DNA from: Cellulomonas hominis
Lineage (GTDB): Bacteria; Actinomycetota; Actinomycetes; Actinomycetales; Cellulomonadaceae
NCBI RefSeq assembly: GCF_901521055.1
Contig: NZ_CABEGA010000012.1
Coordinates: 1-64,000, forward strand
Reading direction: 5' to 3'
DNA: 64,000 nt
In this document: positions 1,676 through 5,999 of the stretch, piece after piece
Numbering within the stretch: the first letter of the stretch is position 1
Layout: each line of letters begins with the position of its first letter
Position numbers and translations under genes: made by a program
The notes under the pieces: model-generated
Told to the model about the DNA's origin: nothing
Databases searched by the model: none
The model's input: the letters and a program-made list of their open reading frames with translations, nothing else

Positions 1676-2743
1676 TCAGGCCGGCGGCGCGAGGATGTCC
1701 GCCAGGCTGAACCCCACCGGCTCCTCGAGCTGCGCGTAGGTGCAGGTGGCCGGGTCGCGGTCGGTGCGCCACCGGCGGAACTGGGCGGTGTGCCGGAACC
1801 GGTCGCCCTCCATGTGGTCGTACGCGACCTCGACCACGAGCTCGGGGCGCAGCGGCACGAACGACAGGTCCTTCCCGGCGCTCCACCGGCTGACCGCGCC
1901 GGGCATCCGCTTGTCGCCGTGGGCGGACTGGTCGGCCCAGTCGCCCCACGGGTGCCCGGACAGGTCGTCGGCGCGCAGCGGCTCCAGCTCCTCCACGAGC
2001 GTCTTGCGCCGGGCCATCGGGAACGACGCCGCGACGCCCACGTGCTGCAGCCGGCCGTCGTCGGTCCACAGGCCGAGCAGCAGCGAGCCGACGACCGGGC
2101 CGGACTTGTGCCAGCGGAAGCCGGCGACCACGCAGTCGGCGGTGCGGGCGTGCTTGACCTTGAACATCGTGCGCTTGTCCGGCTGGTACGTGCCGTCCAG
2201 CGGCTTCGCGACGACGCCGTCGAGCCCGGCGCCCTCGAACCGGCCGAACCAGTCCTGGGCGACCGCGAGGTCCGCGGTCGAGGGTGTCAGGTGGACCGGC
2301 GCCTGCGCCCCGCCGAGCGCGTCGACGAGCCGCGCGCGCCGGTCCGCGAACGGCGTCCGCATGAGGTCCTCGTCGCCGAGCGCCAGCAGGTCGAAGCCGA
2401 CGAACGACGCGGGGGTCTGCTGGGACAGCAGCCGCACGCGGCTGTCCGCCGGGTGGATGCGCTGCTGCAGCGCGTCGAAGTCCAGCCGGTCGCCGGACAC
2501 CACGACGATCTCCCCGTCGACGACGCACCGCTCGGGCAGGTTCGCCTTGAGGGACTCGACGAGCTCCGGGAAGTACCGCGTCATCGGCTTCTCGTTGCGG
2601 CTGCCCAGGACGACCTCGTCGCCGTCCCGGAACACGATGGTCCGGAACCCGTCCCACTTGGGCTCGGTGTGCCCGAGGTCGGGGATCTCGGGCACGGCCT
2701 TGGCCAGCATCGGGGACACGGGTGGCATCACGGGCAGGTCCAT
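1676..2743 (-). CDS. ligC: ATP-dependent DNA ligase (LigC/LigD-ligase type)
   Basis: A 355-residue ATP-dependent DNA ligase made of the adenylation domain followed by an OB fold, without the polymerase and nuclease domains of full LigD. The nucleotidyltransferase motif I reads EPKWDGFR, with the adenylated lysine at residue 29. Motif IV (DGVVAKPL) and motif V (KVKHARTADCVV) follow. Actinobacterial LigC enzymes are linked to accessory end joining or gap repair; no Ku gene is visible here. I chose the ATG at 2741-2743 over the GTG/ATG nine bases earlier because a CAGGAT -10-like box ends 7 nt before it, which suggests a leaderless mRNA. The ABC-2 permease gene ends just upstream. Confidence 0.88.
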   Translation of the reverse strand: MDLPVMPPVSPMLAKAVPEIPDLGHTEPKWDGFRTIVFRDGDEVVLGSRNEKPMTRYFPELVESLKANLPERCVVDGEIVVVSGDRLDFDALQQRIHPADSRVRLLSQQTPASFVGFDLLALGDEDLMRTPFADRRARLVDALGGAQAPVHLTPSTADLAVAQDWFGRFEGAGLDGVVAKPLDGTYQPDKRTMFKVKHARTADCVVAGFRWHKSGPVVGSLLLGLWTDDGRLQHVGVAASFPMARRKTLVEELEPLRADDLSGHPWGDWADQSAHGDKRMPGAVSRWSAGKDLSFVPLRPELVVEVAYDHMEGDRFRHTAQFRRWRTDRDPATCTYAQLEEPVGFSLADILAPPA

Positions 2744-2761
2744 GGCGCCCATCCTGCTCGT

Positions 2762-3496
2762 TCACGCCCGGCGGCGCAGCGCCCAGACCGCTCCGGCCAC
2801 CGACGCCGCGCACCAGGCGAGCAGCACGACGAGGGAGCGCGCGGGCAGGGTGAACGCGTCGCTGACCAGGCCCGCCCGGACGAGCTGCGCCATCGGCTCG
2901 ATCGGCAGCCACTCGTGCGCGCCCTGCAGCCACCCGGGCATCCGCTCGGCGGGGTAGGACACCGGGCTGAACAGCAGCACGACGAACACCAGGGCCTGCG
3001 TCATCAGGGACGCCAGCGCGGGCGCGAGCAGCGAGGCCATCGCGTACCCGACCGCGGCGGCCGTGAGCGAGACCAGCAGGGCGCCCGGCACGAGCCACGG
3101 CGCGAGCGACAGGTCGACGTCGAACCGCAGCACGCCGGCGACGACGCCCAGCACCATGCCCGGCAGCGCCAGCACGGTCCAGACCAGCAGGTCGCTGATC
3201 AGGAACAGCGACCGCGGCACCGGCAGGGTCCGCATCCAGTCGAGGCTGCCCTCGGTGCGGGACTGGGACAGCAGCTGCGGCGTGACGACCAGGCCGATGG
3301 TGATGAGCGTGACCGTCGGCGCGCCGGTGGCGAGGTACAGCGCGGTCACCGGGTCCGGGTCCCCGACCAGCAGGCCGTAGCCGATCACGGTGGCGACGGC
3401 CATGAACACCTGCACCACGACCATGAGCGGCAGGAAGGCCGACTGGCGGCGGAGCTGCCACTGCGCCAGCAGCAGGGTCTGCTCGACGGCGGTCAC
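2762..3496 (-). CDS. ABC-2 type transporter permease
   Basis: A 244-residue integral membrane protein with about six hydrophobic segments, for example MVVVQVFMAVATVIGYGLLV and VFVVLLFSPVSYP. The latter contains the FSPVSYP-type signature common in ABC-2 exporter permeases. Its start overlaps the end of the upstream ATPase gene by 4 bp (GTGA), so the two are translationally coupled and should form one exporter. The substrate cannot be read from sequence. Regulation is expected through the TetR regulator encoded divergently beyond the ATPase. Confidence 0.88.
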   Translation of the reverse strand: MTAVEQTLLLAQWQLRRQSAFLPLMVVVQVFMAVATVIGYGLLVGDPDPVTALYLATGAPTVTLITIGLVVTPQLLSQSRTEGSLDWMRTLPVPRSLFLISDLLVWTVLALPGMVLGVVAGVLRFDVDLSLAPWLVPGALLVSLTAAAVGYAMASLLAPALASLMTQALVFVVLLFSPVSYPAERMPGWLQGAHEWLPIEPMAQLVRAGLVSDAFTLPARSLVVLLAWCAASVAGAVWALRRRA

Positions 3497-4473
3497 GCGG
3501 CCTCACCCGCCAGGGCGGTCGCGGTGCCGGCGTGGTGCTCGTCGCCGACCAGGTCCACGTACACGTCCTCCAGGGACGCGGGGGTGAGCGCGTACCGCTC
3601 CAGACGGTCGGCCGCGACCTCCGCCTGCGCCCACCGCACGACCTCCGCGGCGTCGTCGGACCGGACCGTCCCGGTCTCGCGGCCGCGCGAAGCGGACACG
3701 CCGCGGACGGCGGGGTGCCACGCCCAGGCCGCGCCGTCGAGGTCGTGCGCGAGGTCGGCCTCGACCGTGAGCGTGTCCTGCAGGTGCGCGGTGAGGCCCG
3801 CGGGGGTGTCGTCGGCGAGCACGACGCCGTGGTCGAGCACGGCCAGGCGGTCGACCACCCGCTCCGCCTCGCGCACGTTGTGGGTGACCAGCAGGACCCC
3901 GCGGCCCTGGTCGGCGAGCGCGCGGATCTGCTGCCACAGCAGCCGGCGGCGCACCGGGTCGACATCGTTGGTCGGCTCGTCCAGCACCACGAGCCGGCCC
4001 GGGGCGACGACGGTCATCGCGAACGCCGTGAGGCGGGCGATGCCGCCGGAGACCTTCTCCGCGGGGGTGTCGGCCCACGGGCCGAGGTCCAGCGCGTCGA
4101 TCAGCTCGGTCGCACGCTCCCGGACGGCGGGGCGGTCGGCGCCCCGGATGCGTCCCACGAGCTCGATCGCGCGGCGGGGCGTCAGCCCGGTGATCGGGAC
4201 GTTGGCCTGCGCCTGGATCGACACGAGCCGGCGGGCCTGGTCGGGGTGTGCGACCGCGTCGACCCCGGCGAGGCGGATGGTCCCTGCGTCGGGCCGCACG
4301 AGGCCGACCACCTGGTTCACGAGCGTGGTCTTGCCCGCTCCGTTGTGGCCCAGCAGCCCGACGACCTGCCCCGCGGCGACGTCCAGGTCGATCCCGTCGT
4401 TGGCCTGCACACCGCTGCGTCCGCGGTACCGCTTGCGCAGCCCCCGCACGCTCAGCACGTCTGCCGATCCCAT
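3493..4473 (-). CDS. ABC transporter ATP-binding protein (ABC-2 exporter)
   Basis: A 326-residue ATPase subunit that would power the permease encoded downstream. Walker A is GHNGAGKTT at residues 42-50, the signature is VSGGI, and Walker B is LVVLDEPTNDVDP. A C-terminal extension of about 100 residues after the ATPase core is typical of drug or polyketide exporter ATPases of the DrrA type. I start at the ATG 4471-4473, which has a GGAGGAGGT ribosome site 5-6 nt upstream; the frame stays open 20 codons further, into the operator region. The upstream region carries three TACC-N4-GGTA palindromes that fit control by the divergent TetR gene. Exported substrate unknown. Confidence 0.9.
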   Translation of the reverse strand: MGSADVLSVRGLRKRYRGRSGVQANDGIDLDVAAGQVVGLLGHNGAGKTTLVNQVVGLVRPDAGTIRLAGVDAVAHPDQARRLVSIQAQANVPITGLTPRRAIELVGRIRGADRPAVRERATELIDALDLGPWADTPAEKVSGGIARLTAFAMTVVAPGRLVVLDEPTNDVDPVRRRLLWQQIRALADQGRGVLLVTHNVREAERVVDRLAVLDHGVVLADDTPAGLTAHLQDTLTVEADLAHDLDGAAWAWHPAVRGVSASRGRETGTVRSDDAAEVVRWAQAEVAADRLERYALTPASLEDVYVDLVGDEHHAGTATALAGEAA

Positions 4474-4498
4474 CGTGCACCTCCTCCGTCTCGTCACA

Positions 4499-4510
4499 TA
4501 CCGATCGGTA
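4499..4510. promoter_or_regulatory. Operator palindrome 1 (TetR/ABC intergenic)
   Basis: TACCGATCGGTA is a perfect 12-bp palindrome 26 bp upstream of the ABC ATPase start. It shares the TACC-N4-GGTA form with two more sites in the same intergenic region, so it is a probable operator for the adjacent TetR protein. Confidence 0.65.
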
Positions 4511-4541
4511 CATCGGTGACCGTAGCAGCACATGGCGTCAC

Positions 4542-4555
4542 ATACCAGGGGGTAT
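4542..4555. promoter_or_regulatory. Operator palindrome 2 (TetR/ABC intergenic)
   Basis: ATACCAGGGGGTAT has 5-bp inverted arms ATACC/GGTAT around a 4-nt spacer, the same arrangement as the flanking sites at 4499-4510 and 4621-4634. Confidence 0.6.
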
Positions 4556-4620
4556 CCATCGAGCCGGGGGCGTGTCTGCGCAGGTCCGGGCGCCGGGACG
4601 ATCGTCTCGACGTCGTCGAC

Positions 4621-4634
4621 ATACCGCGCGGTAC
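4621..4634. promoter_or_regulatory. Operator palindrome 3 overlapping the tetR promoter
   Basis: TACCGCGCGGTA (4622-4633) is a perfect palindrome. It lies just upstream of a TATGAT -10 box (4644-4649) that ends 6 nt before the tetR start codon. Repressor bound here would cover the -35 and spacer region, so autorepression is likely. A degenerate fourth half-pair (TACGCCCGTGGGTA, 4632-4645) overlaps it. Confidence 0.65.
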
Positions 4635-4655
4635 GCCCGTGGGTATGATGGCGGG

Positions 4656-5492
4656 ATGGCCCGGACCCCCGACCGCGACGAGCACCCCGACGACACCATC
4701 GGCGCCGCCACCCGCGCCCTGGCGGACGCGACCGCCGCCCTGACCCGCCTCATCGGCAAGCAGGTGCAGAGCGTCGTCCCCGAGGTCTCGGAGGCGGTCG
4801 CCGCGAGCCTGCGCGAGGCGTCACGCGGCCTGGCGGACGCGTCCGAGCACGTGCAGCGGGCCGGCGACGGCACCCGGGCCGAGGGTCGCCGGCGGGAGAA
4901 GGTGGACCGCACCCGCGCCGACCTGCTCGACGCCGCCGCCCGCGTCATCGCCGCGAAGGGCTACGAGGGCGCGTCCGTCGGCGACATCGCCGCCGAGGCT
5001 GGGTACACCAAGGGGGCCCTGTACGGGCACTTCGGGTCCAAGGAGGGCGTGTTCCTCGCCCTCGCGCGCGAGCGCCTGGGGATCGCGATGTCCGACCCCG
5101 ACCTGGACATCCCCGGGCTCAGCACCGACGGCGTCGACACCGCGGCCCTGGCGGGCTGGCTGCGGGACGCGCAGGACGACCCGAACCTGCTGCTGTCCCT
5201 GGAGTTCCTGACCTACGGGCTGCGCAACCCCGACGCGGGTGGCGAGCTCGCGGCGCTGCACGTGCGGTCCTTCGACCTCGTCGCCGAGCAGGTCGCGGCC
5301 ATGCGGCTGGCCCGGCGCCGCGCTGCCGGTGCCGAGCCGGGGCCCGCCGAACCGACGCAGGAGGACCGGGACGCGGCGCTCGCGGTCATCAGCGTGCTGA
5401 ACGTCGCGACGCTCGAGGGCAAGCTCACCGGGTCGGAGCACATGTCGCCGGAGGCCGGAGCCCGGATCATCGCCCGGCTGCTGGCCGGCTGA
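4656..5492 (+). CDS. TetR family regulator with long N-terminal extension
   Basis: A 278-residue TetR-type repressor. The DNA-binding domain sits unusually far in, at about residues 83-130, where the recognition helix region reads SVGDIAAEAGYTKGALYGHF. The first 80 residues form an extra segment rich in Ala, Ser and charged residues that looks amphipathic and helical; most TetR proteins start only 5-20 residues before the helix-turn-helix. The C-terminal ligand domain is ordinary in length. The start ATG lies exactly 6 nt after a TATGAT box, so the mRNA is probably leaderless, and no Shine-Dalgarno sequence is visible. Palindromes at 4499, 4542 and 4621 suggest that it represses itself and the divergent ABC exporter. 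Confidence 0.88.
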   Translation: MARTPDRDEHPDDTIGAATRALADATAALTRLIGKQVQSVVPEVSEAVAASLREASRGLADASEHVQRAGDGTRAEGRRREKVDRTRADLLDAAARVIAAKGYEGASVGDIAAEAGYTKGALYGHFGSKEGVFLALARERLGIAMSDPDLDIPGLSTDGVDTAALAGWLRDAQDDPNLLLSLEFLTYGLRNPDAGGELAALHVRSFDLVAEQVAAMRLARRRAAGAEPGPAEPTQEDRDAALAVISVLNVATLEGKLTGSEHMSPEAGARIIARLLAG

Positions 5493-5495
5493 GGC

Positions 5496-5999
5496 TCAGC
5501 CCGCGTCGCGGTGCGCGTTGCGGGACAGCCGCAGCGGCACGGCGAGCCACACGACCGACAGGCCGACGATGACGAGCGCGCCGGCGATCCAGCCCGCCGT
5601 GCGGTCGACCACGACGTCGAACAGCAGCAGCGCGGAACCCGCCAGCACGAGCGCGAGCATCGCCAGGCCGGTCTGCGCCATCTTGTCCGCCGACTCCACC
5701 AGCTCGCGCTTGAGGTGCCGCCGGAACAGGATCCGGTGCAACGACACCGGCGCGACGATGAAGCCCGTCGCCGCGACCGCGAGCACCACCAGGACCAGGT
5801 AGACGGCCTTCTGGTACTCGTCGAGGTCGAGGAACCGCTGCTGGAACGGCACCGTGAGCAGGAACCCGGTGAGGATCTGCACGCCGGTCTGCGCGACGCG
5901 CAGCTCCTGGAGCAGCTCGTTCCAGTTCCGGTCCATGCGCTCGGTCGGCGTCTCGCTGCGCCCGTCGTCGGTGCGTGCGGCGCGCTGCTGGTCGGTCAT
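5496..5999 (-). CDS. DUF6328-type membrane protein
   Basis: A 167-residue membrane protein. A hydrophilic N-terminus with a WNELLQELRVAQTGVQIL segment is followed by four hydrophobic stretches: ILTGFLLTVPF, VYLVLVVLAVAATGFIV, GLAMLALVLAGSALLLF and AGALVIVGLSVVWLAV. This pattern matches the DUF6328 family of actinobacterial membrane proteins, whose role is unknown. The ATG at 5997-5999 has a GGAGGA ribosome site. The gene converges on tetR with only 3 bp between them. Confidence 0.8.
   Translation of the reverse strand: MTDQQRAARTDDGRSETPTERMDRNWNELLQELRVAQTGVQILTGFLLTVPFQQRFLDLDEYQKAVYLVLVVLAVAATGFIVAPVSLHRILFRRHLKRELVESADKMAQTGLAMLALVLAGSALLLFDVVVDRTAGWIAGALVIVGLSVVWLAVPLRLSRNAHRDAG

Follow-up and report, generated by a model that had tools for sequence, protein, structure and literature searches.

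Repressors of the TetR type rank with the commonest regulators in bacteria and typically consist of two parts, a helix-turn-helix (HTH) and a ligand domain. In the stretch of Cellulomonas hominis DNA analysed here (64,000 nucleotides, referred to below as the window), a tetR-family gene appears to code for a third part, a segment that precedes the HTH. The questions raised by this locus are whether such a segment is indeed made, whether it is maintained in related bacteria, and what it might contribute to a repressor encoded next to a divergent exporter.

Domain composition of the repressor

The tetR-family gene (4656..5492, forward strand) codes for 278 amino acids from an ATG at 4656. The end given in the initial annotation, 4900, falls short of the gene end. 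Pfam maps the TetR_N helix-turn-helix domain (PF00440) to residues 90-136 (4923..5063, forward strand) with a score of 65.3 bits against the curated cut-off of 24, which places the protein in the TetR/AcrR family. The HTH had been expected near residue 83; this lies ahead of the Pfam domain and within the range from which solved TetR chains mostly align to the window protein (residues 78-90, with a few chains aligning from 61-75). The C-terminal ligand domain has no Pfam match in the window protein, and AlphaFold2 modelled it with a confidence of about 58-80 per block. Nevertheless, approximately residues 78-278 of the model align to KstR, EthR, QacR and other proteins of the TetR fold (best structural alignment: Z 14.0, 174 residues, rmsd 4.1), as expected of an all-helical ligand domain of this fold. 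Foldseek and VIA-align matches are confined to this TetR part, at least one fifth of the VIA-align rows covering residues 81-278 only, and are therefore uninformative on the extension. The model of ScbR family autoregulator-binding factors (NCBIfam NF041196) matches in the HTH only and with 61.1 bits, well below its cut-off of 150.

The extension ahead of the HTH, put at 80 residues initially, is real and comprises about 80-85 residues. It consists of a conserved core, residues 12-67 (4689..4856, forward strand), and an Arg-rich linker, residues 68-85 (4857..4910, forward strand), which immediately precedes the first HTH helix and varies among relatives in both length and sequence. In three relatives (L081, L169 and L172) the linker is enlarged by Ala/Arg/Glu-rich repeats. 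These are natural linker-length variants, and they imply that no fixed distance is needed between core and HTH.

Translation start of the extended repressor

The ATG at 4656 stands 6 nt after the hexamer TATGAT (4644..4649, forward strand), the putative -10 element of a leaderless tetR promoter, and no Shine-Dalgarno (SD)-like 4-mer precedes it. A TANNNT motif about 12 bp upstream of the start codon has been described as a mark of leaderless genes, which make up approximately a fifth of the genes in Actinobacteria (PMC3160421). The tetR sequence bears this mark at a distance of 12 nt, counted from the first T of TATGAT. A consensus promoter scan, covering only the sigma-70-type consensus, found no promoter.

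The initial annotation took the leaderless start as confirmation that the extension is translated. A single signal is insufficient for this, but comparison with relatives does support translation. For each of 30 genus members (including C. hominis itself) and nine more distant members, the start was taken as the last ATG or GTG well upstream of the conserved motif, and the presence of TANNNT was checked afterwards. The hexamer ends 6-7 nt before the start in all 39 cases, against a background of 32 in 3783 positions (0.8%) in the 100 bp upstream of starts. By comparison, the signal accompanies none of the in-frame internal start codons (0/342 overall; 0/75 within the first 95 codons). SD-like 4-mers were found at three of the 39 tetR starts and at four of the same 75 internal codons, none of the four being in the window gene.

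The window gene does have in-frame GTG codons at residues 37, 66 and 83, and it might be argued that translation begins just before the HTH, so that the extension is not made. We give this next to no credence, since all 39 upstream starts look leaderless while the 75 internal codons lack the signal, and since no column of internal start codons is filled in more than nine of the 30 genus members. On the start-codon columns and the TANNNT comparison, an internal start ahead of the HTH was rejected. The extension of the TetR protein is thus, as far as sequence comparison can tell, very probably translated.

Conservation and predicted structure of the extension

The extension core spans 56 columns, which are gap-free in all 30 genus members; the proteins of these members align from end to end. 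For the analysis of periodicity and self-similarity we used a 27-row alignment of 18 of these genus members and the nine distant ones. In this broader set the core has one single-residue insertion and one gap, both in the same distant member (L114), and still contains invariant residues. Among the 30 genus members, mean pairwise identity is 0.56 in the core, 0.25 in the linker, 0.76 in the HTH and 0.44 in the ligand domain. The corresponding pN/pS values (424 of 435 pairs), unreliable in absolute terms due to GC-biased third positions, are 0.72 for the core, 0.41 for the HTH and 0.90 for the ligand domain. Overall, these comparisons support the view that the extension has been maintained in evolution and that its core is more conserved than the ligand domain, although the case is tempered by a core pN/pS far above that of the HTH. 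The possibility that the extension is a chance open frame was ruled out by the gap-free conserved core in the genus alignment.

The modest pN/pS, together with the tolerance of the linker for large repeats in three relatives, would also fit an extension that has no regulatory role and is kept solely for protein stability. We regard this as decidedly improbable in view of the uninterrupted core in 30 genus members, the residues that are invariant even in distant ones, and a level of core conservation that exceeds that of the ligand domain.

The segment had been described as helical-looking, and both its periodicity and two AlphaFold2 models predict it to be helical. Over all 56 core columns of the 27-row alignment the hydrophobic moment peaks at 96 degrees, a peak equalled in none of 1000 column shuffles, and each half of the core separately peaks at 100 degrees (p 0.003 and 0/1000). 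One face of the core is formed by small residues and Leu (A18, A21, L22, A25, L29, L52, A55 and L59). On average, the core has 8.1 acidic and 5.9 basic residues and few aromatic ones (27 rows). In the AlphaFold2 model of the full protein, the extension is a hairpin of two helices, residues 13-37 and 42-101, the latter of which continues into the first HTH helix. The block confidence is 70-87 for residues 11-80; the alignment used for this model (36 loci out of 37 considered from 66, L054 being left out as too short) contained no relatives of the extension. When the fragment 1-90 was modelled without an alignment, a single helix of residues 11-89 was obtained (mean confidence 91 in the best of five models, range 73-91). 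The helical nature of the extension is the safe part of these predictions, as the two models disagree on whether it is a hairpin or a rod.

Shifted by 37 residues, the core (4689-4856) resembles itself, the pattern R-x-L-A-D-A occurring twice. The self-score at this offset is 22.4, compared with a shuffled-column mean of 10.3 (sd 2.1; 0/300 as high), and offset 11 scores 20.6. The resemblance is perhaps a trace of an old internal duplication, or merely a shared helical pattern.

We asked whether the extension corresponds to any described domain. Pfam gave no match at E ≤ 1 for residues 1-89 of the window protein, and scattered weak matches for the 30 cores, the best having an E-value of 0.0021 in one member. 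A profile search of the PDB with the extension returned eight weak matches (best E 0.0086, no stretch being significant alone in that chain), four of them coiled-coil peptides; these are too weak to count as homology. In the literature searched on N-terminally extended TetR proteins, on leaderless genes and on the genus we found no description of this extended TetR family.

Distribution of the extended repressor

The initial annotation had called for a search for the segment in other TetR proteins. It is indeed present in relatives and, according to our searches of the sampled genomes, is found reliably only inside one order. Matches to the TetR protein at E ≤ 1e-25 occur in 32 of 98 related genomes, and in 31 of the 60 within the genus, including the C. 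hominis genome itself. All these matches start at query residue 17 or earlier, so that none of them lacks the extension. Thirty of the 32 genomes were analysed at the DNA level, one (G096) is represented by locus L117, and one (G012), matching only over residues 11-139, yielded no locus.

A profile of the extension was searched up to the class level. It matched 56 of 200 genomes (7 of 25 genera) in the family, 15 of 396 genomes (9 of 109 genera) in the order, and four of 394 genomes in the class sample. The latter are the C. hominis genome and three weak matches (about 2e-4), whose loci have no full TetR profile match at E ≤ 1e-4. The nine distant members are the nine new genomes among the 15 order matches; having been found with the extension profile, they contain the extension by construction, and in all nine it is followed by the TetR part. 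The 56 family genomes were examined gene by gene only in part. Within the C. hominis genome the profile has a single match at E ≤ 1, the gene itself. Searching named genomes for homologues yielded 66 loci, none of them close (best E 2e-17, best segment identity 56%) and none matching before query residue 50. With tblastn against plasmids, 13 records were obtained, but no record reached 80% coverage of the query.

Predicted operators in the divergent promoter region

TACC-N4-GGTA palindromes had been reported at 4499, 4543 and 4622, the last of them across the tetR promoter, and both statements are borne out: the divergent promoter region holds exactly three such sites. We labeled them predicted operator 1 (TACCGATCGGTA, 4499..4510), operator 2 (TACCAGGGGGTA, 4543..4554) and operator 3 (TACCGCGCGGTA, 4622..4633). 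Operator 3 spans positions -34 to -23 from the ATG and covers the -35/spacer part of the tetR promoter. The rest of the 64 kb window has no exact copy. If one mismatch is tolerated, six matches are found in the window, compared with a shuffle mean of 4.1, and 22 of 100 shuffles reach six; this count is not above chance, and therefore only the exact sites are telling there. The whole genome (4.07 Mb) contains six exact palindromes, three of them within these 135 bp, and none of a control pattern.

Across the genus, 55 exact palindromes were counted in 30 intergenic regions (that of C. hominis and 29 from relatives; 3869 bp in total). None occurs in the remaining 108,011 bp of these loci, and in dinucleotide-shuffled versions of the intergenic sequences the mean is 0.15 and the maximum two. 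Allowing one mismatch, we counted 92 sites in the intergenic regions, against 2.57 in shuffles and one elsewhere in the loci. At least one exact site is present in 27 of the 30 genus members and at least two in 21; the three members without an exact site (L085, L092 and L093) carry one-mismatch copies. Chance occurrence of the palindromes is ruled out by this intergenic enrichment and by the whole-genome count. The comparative evidence that the three palindromes are operators is strong.

Between operators 1 and 2 lies a conserved block, GTAGCAG in nine of ten aligned sequences (the window and nine relatives) and GTATCAG in the remaining one (L083). On the opposite strand this gives a TANNNT hexamer in all ten, which in the window reads TACGGT (4519..4524, reverse strand; that is, 4524-4519). 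From this alignment we infer that the block is the exporter promoter and the hexamer its -10 element. Operator 2 would then lie over the -35 position and operator 1 just downstream of the transcription start.

Neighbouring exact sites are spaced by 44-47, 34, 31, 60, 20, 92 or 77-81 bp, and the spacing differs among clades. The spacing of 44-46 bp simply flanks the exporter promoter. Since the spacings have no common helical phase, they were not taken as evidence for bridging between operators.

Beyond the genus, exact operators were found in the scanned regions of only three of the nine distant members (L109, L112 and L113). In each of four others (L111, L114, L115 and L117) there is a single site with one mismatch, and two (L116 and L118) lack even such a site. 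Three of the members without an exact TACC-N4-GGTA site carry different, short palindromes close to the TetR start: CCCCT-N5-AGGGG at -34 in L115 and L118, and GGTTC-N4-GAACC at -32 in L116. Although these palindromes were read without a chance control, these lineages may have switched to another type of operator.

The three exact palindromes found elsewhere in the C. hominis genome form no clear regulon. One of them, at C21:48065-48076 (1501-1512 of L183), is identical to operator 2 of the window; 4 nt separate its end from the ATG of a small ORF, which by eye resembles a secreted protein and is a possible second target of the regulator. Of the other two (C18:122407-122418, in L182, and C25:14017-14028, in L184), one is apparently intergenic, upstream of an ORF that by eye is aminotransferase-like, and the other is inside an ORF.

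The exporter and neighbouring genes

Divergently from tetR are encoded an ABC transporter ATP-binding protein (3493..4473, reverse strand; Pfam ABC_tran), preceded by a Shine-Dalgarno-like GGAGGAGG, and an ABC-2 type permease (2762..3496, reverse strand; Pfam ABC2_membrane). The best NCBIfam match of the ATPase is drrA (TIGR01188), yet the score of 195.9 bits is below the cut-off of 312.45, and the protein does not qualify as a member of the DrrA-type exporters. The locus thus has the arrangement known from TetR/TetA and SimR/SimX, in which exporter genes diverge from the repressor gene and the region between them holds operators, here identified by sequence. An ATP-dependent DNA ligase gene (1676-2752, reverse strand; Pfam DNA_ligase_A_M and DNA_ligase_A_C) starts about 10 bp past the permease end and may be co-transcribed with the exporter. 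On the other side, a gene for a DUF6328 protein (5499-5999, reverse strand; 203 bits) is convergent with tetR.

The ATPase gene is divergent beside tetR in all 30 genus members. At E ≤ 1e-90 the ATPase is found in 36 of 70 genus genomes. A search for both genes in 60 genomes found the extended tetR together with the ATPase in 31 and neither gene in 29; in the other five ATPase carriers an extended TetR adjoins in every case. Five of the nine distant members (L109, L111, L112, L114 and L117) keep the divergent ATPase, and in two (L115 and L118) the exporter genes lie upstream of tetR on the same strand. In the remaining two (L113 and L116) we found no exporter pair in the stretch around tetR that was examined. 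In two of the 36 genus genomes with the ATPase (G045 and G012) it is interrupted by one in-frame TGA at similar positions in two near-identical matches, reflecting either a damaged gene or an assembly error.

The joint presence or absence of the extended TetR and the ATPase in the genus is what would be expected if the extension were a docking site for a protein or a membrane, for example for the exporter ATPase, and so gave the repressor a second input by which it is freed or held. The persistence of the extension despite a seeming change of operator type in some lineages, and a weak match of one of the 30 cores to the Pfam Apolipoprotein model (E 0.019), point the same way. However, joint presence is also explained by simple local regulation, and the two distant members without an exporter pair in the examined stretch do not fit. 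Neither does genome G009, in which a second exporter pair (L178, G009:C11:448500-453500) has no family TetR and no operator-like site within 5 kb. Binding to anionic membranes is disfavoured by an excess of acidic residues and a scarcity of aromatic ones, as in this core, and no docking partner was identified. On balance, we consider docking distinctly unlikely. Related to it is the idea that the extension might be an undescribed helical sensor or coupling module, reading a second signal, for instance another protein or the occupancy of the repressor's own ABC exporter. This is doubtful to a slightly greater degree; if it were true, export capacity would feed back directly on transcription, independently of the ligand pocket.

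Comparison with characterized TetR proteins

The nearest functional parallel is SimR, the repressor of the simocyclinone exporter SimX. The two systems share a TetR repressor, a divergent exporter and an N-terminal extension before the HTH (PMC5812520, PMC4418694), and SimR likewise has more than one operator, two being described in its intergenic region (PMC5812520). The SimR extension is a positively charged stretch of 28 residues that is placed into the minor groove (PMC4418694). It is conceivable that the extension described here also mainly aids DNA binding, with the Arg-rich linker in the minor groove and the helices merely stabilising the arrangement. In agreement with this, the linker directly precedes the first HTH helix and could act like the SimR tail. 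However, it is the core that is conserved and not the linker, and, in contrast to the short basic tail of SimR, the 56-residue helical core is more acidic than basic, so that the extension is not of the SimR type. The exporters differ too: that of SimR belongs to the major facilitator superfamily, whereas the one here is of the ABC-2 type. We regard a SimR-like role as unlikely.

QacR, CgmR, SlmA, Ms6564 and CprB are described as binding DNA as a dimer of dimers, and cooperative binding is reported for QacR and CprB (PMC4150764). In that group both dimers sit on a single stretch, whose length is stated for four of the five proteins and is 22-32 bp (PMC4150764). In the window, by contrast, the palindromes are set apart by 44 and 79 bp, and an extra helical module is present. 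Two other TetR-family proteins have N-terminal extensions. That of Mycobacterium tuberculosis FasR has 33 residues; by its published description the sequence varies and no secondary structure is predicted (PMC7382501), unlike in the conserved and predicted helical core reported here. In a Saccharomonospora viridis TetR (PDB 4ich, 4jnn, 4kwa and 4nel) the N-terminal part is likewise long. The chain sequence of 4ich has 311 residues, with the HTH match beginning at residue 116; the aligned structure, of 193 residues, begins at its residue 94. At E ≤ 1, this protein is not among the matches of the extension profile.

A proposed model of repression and the likely role of the extension

The gene product is best read as a TetR repressor of an ordinary kind, controlling itself and an ABC exporter, which in addition bears a lineage-specific helical module. 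Translation of the extension, its conservation and predicted helicity, the operators and the linkage to the exporter are all supported by comparison of sequences. According to the model, the full protein, including the extension, would be made from a leaderless mRNA. The repressor would bind all three TACC-N4-GGTA sites, of which two surround the exporter promoter and the third covers that of tetR, and so repress both its own gene and the divergent ABC-2 exporter. A ligand in the C-terminal domain would presumably release it. Repression of both promoters and release by ligand are inferred from the general biology of TetR proteins. The extension itself would be an amphipathic helical module, either a long helix or a hairpin, carried on the variable Arg-rich linker. 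By self-association of repressor dimers it could raise the cooperativity of repression.

That the extension makes repressor dimers associate has less support than the rest of the model. We nevertheless hold self-association to be its likeliest role, with the chances about evenly balanced. It is suggested by the face of small residues and Leu, by the prevalence of acidic over basic residues and by the coiled-coil peptides that make up half of the weak PDB matches. The first two features also argue against a DNA- or membrane-binding role of the core. Oligomerisation, as proposed in the initial annotation, is therefore plausible, but bridging between operators is disfavoured: six of the nine distant members keep the extension without an exact operator, and both the number and the spacing of exact sites vary among genus members and clades. 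As the operators and their spacings vary while the extension stays, the role of the module does not seem tied to this particular operator set.

Implications

Overall, the locus appears to encode an ordinary exporter-repressor pair, the unusual part of which is a conserved, lineage-specific helical arm that matched no described domain in our searches. With one protein, three operators, two promoters and natural variants of linker length and operator spacing, it offers a compact test system. A third, helical part that is conserved and goes with one exporter family would represent a new way of tuning TetR repressors. Should the arm do no more than aid dimer contacts, it would be a small departure from a familiar scheme.
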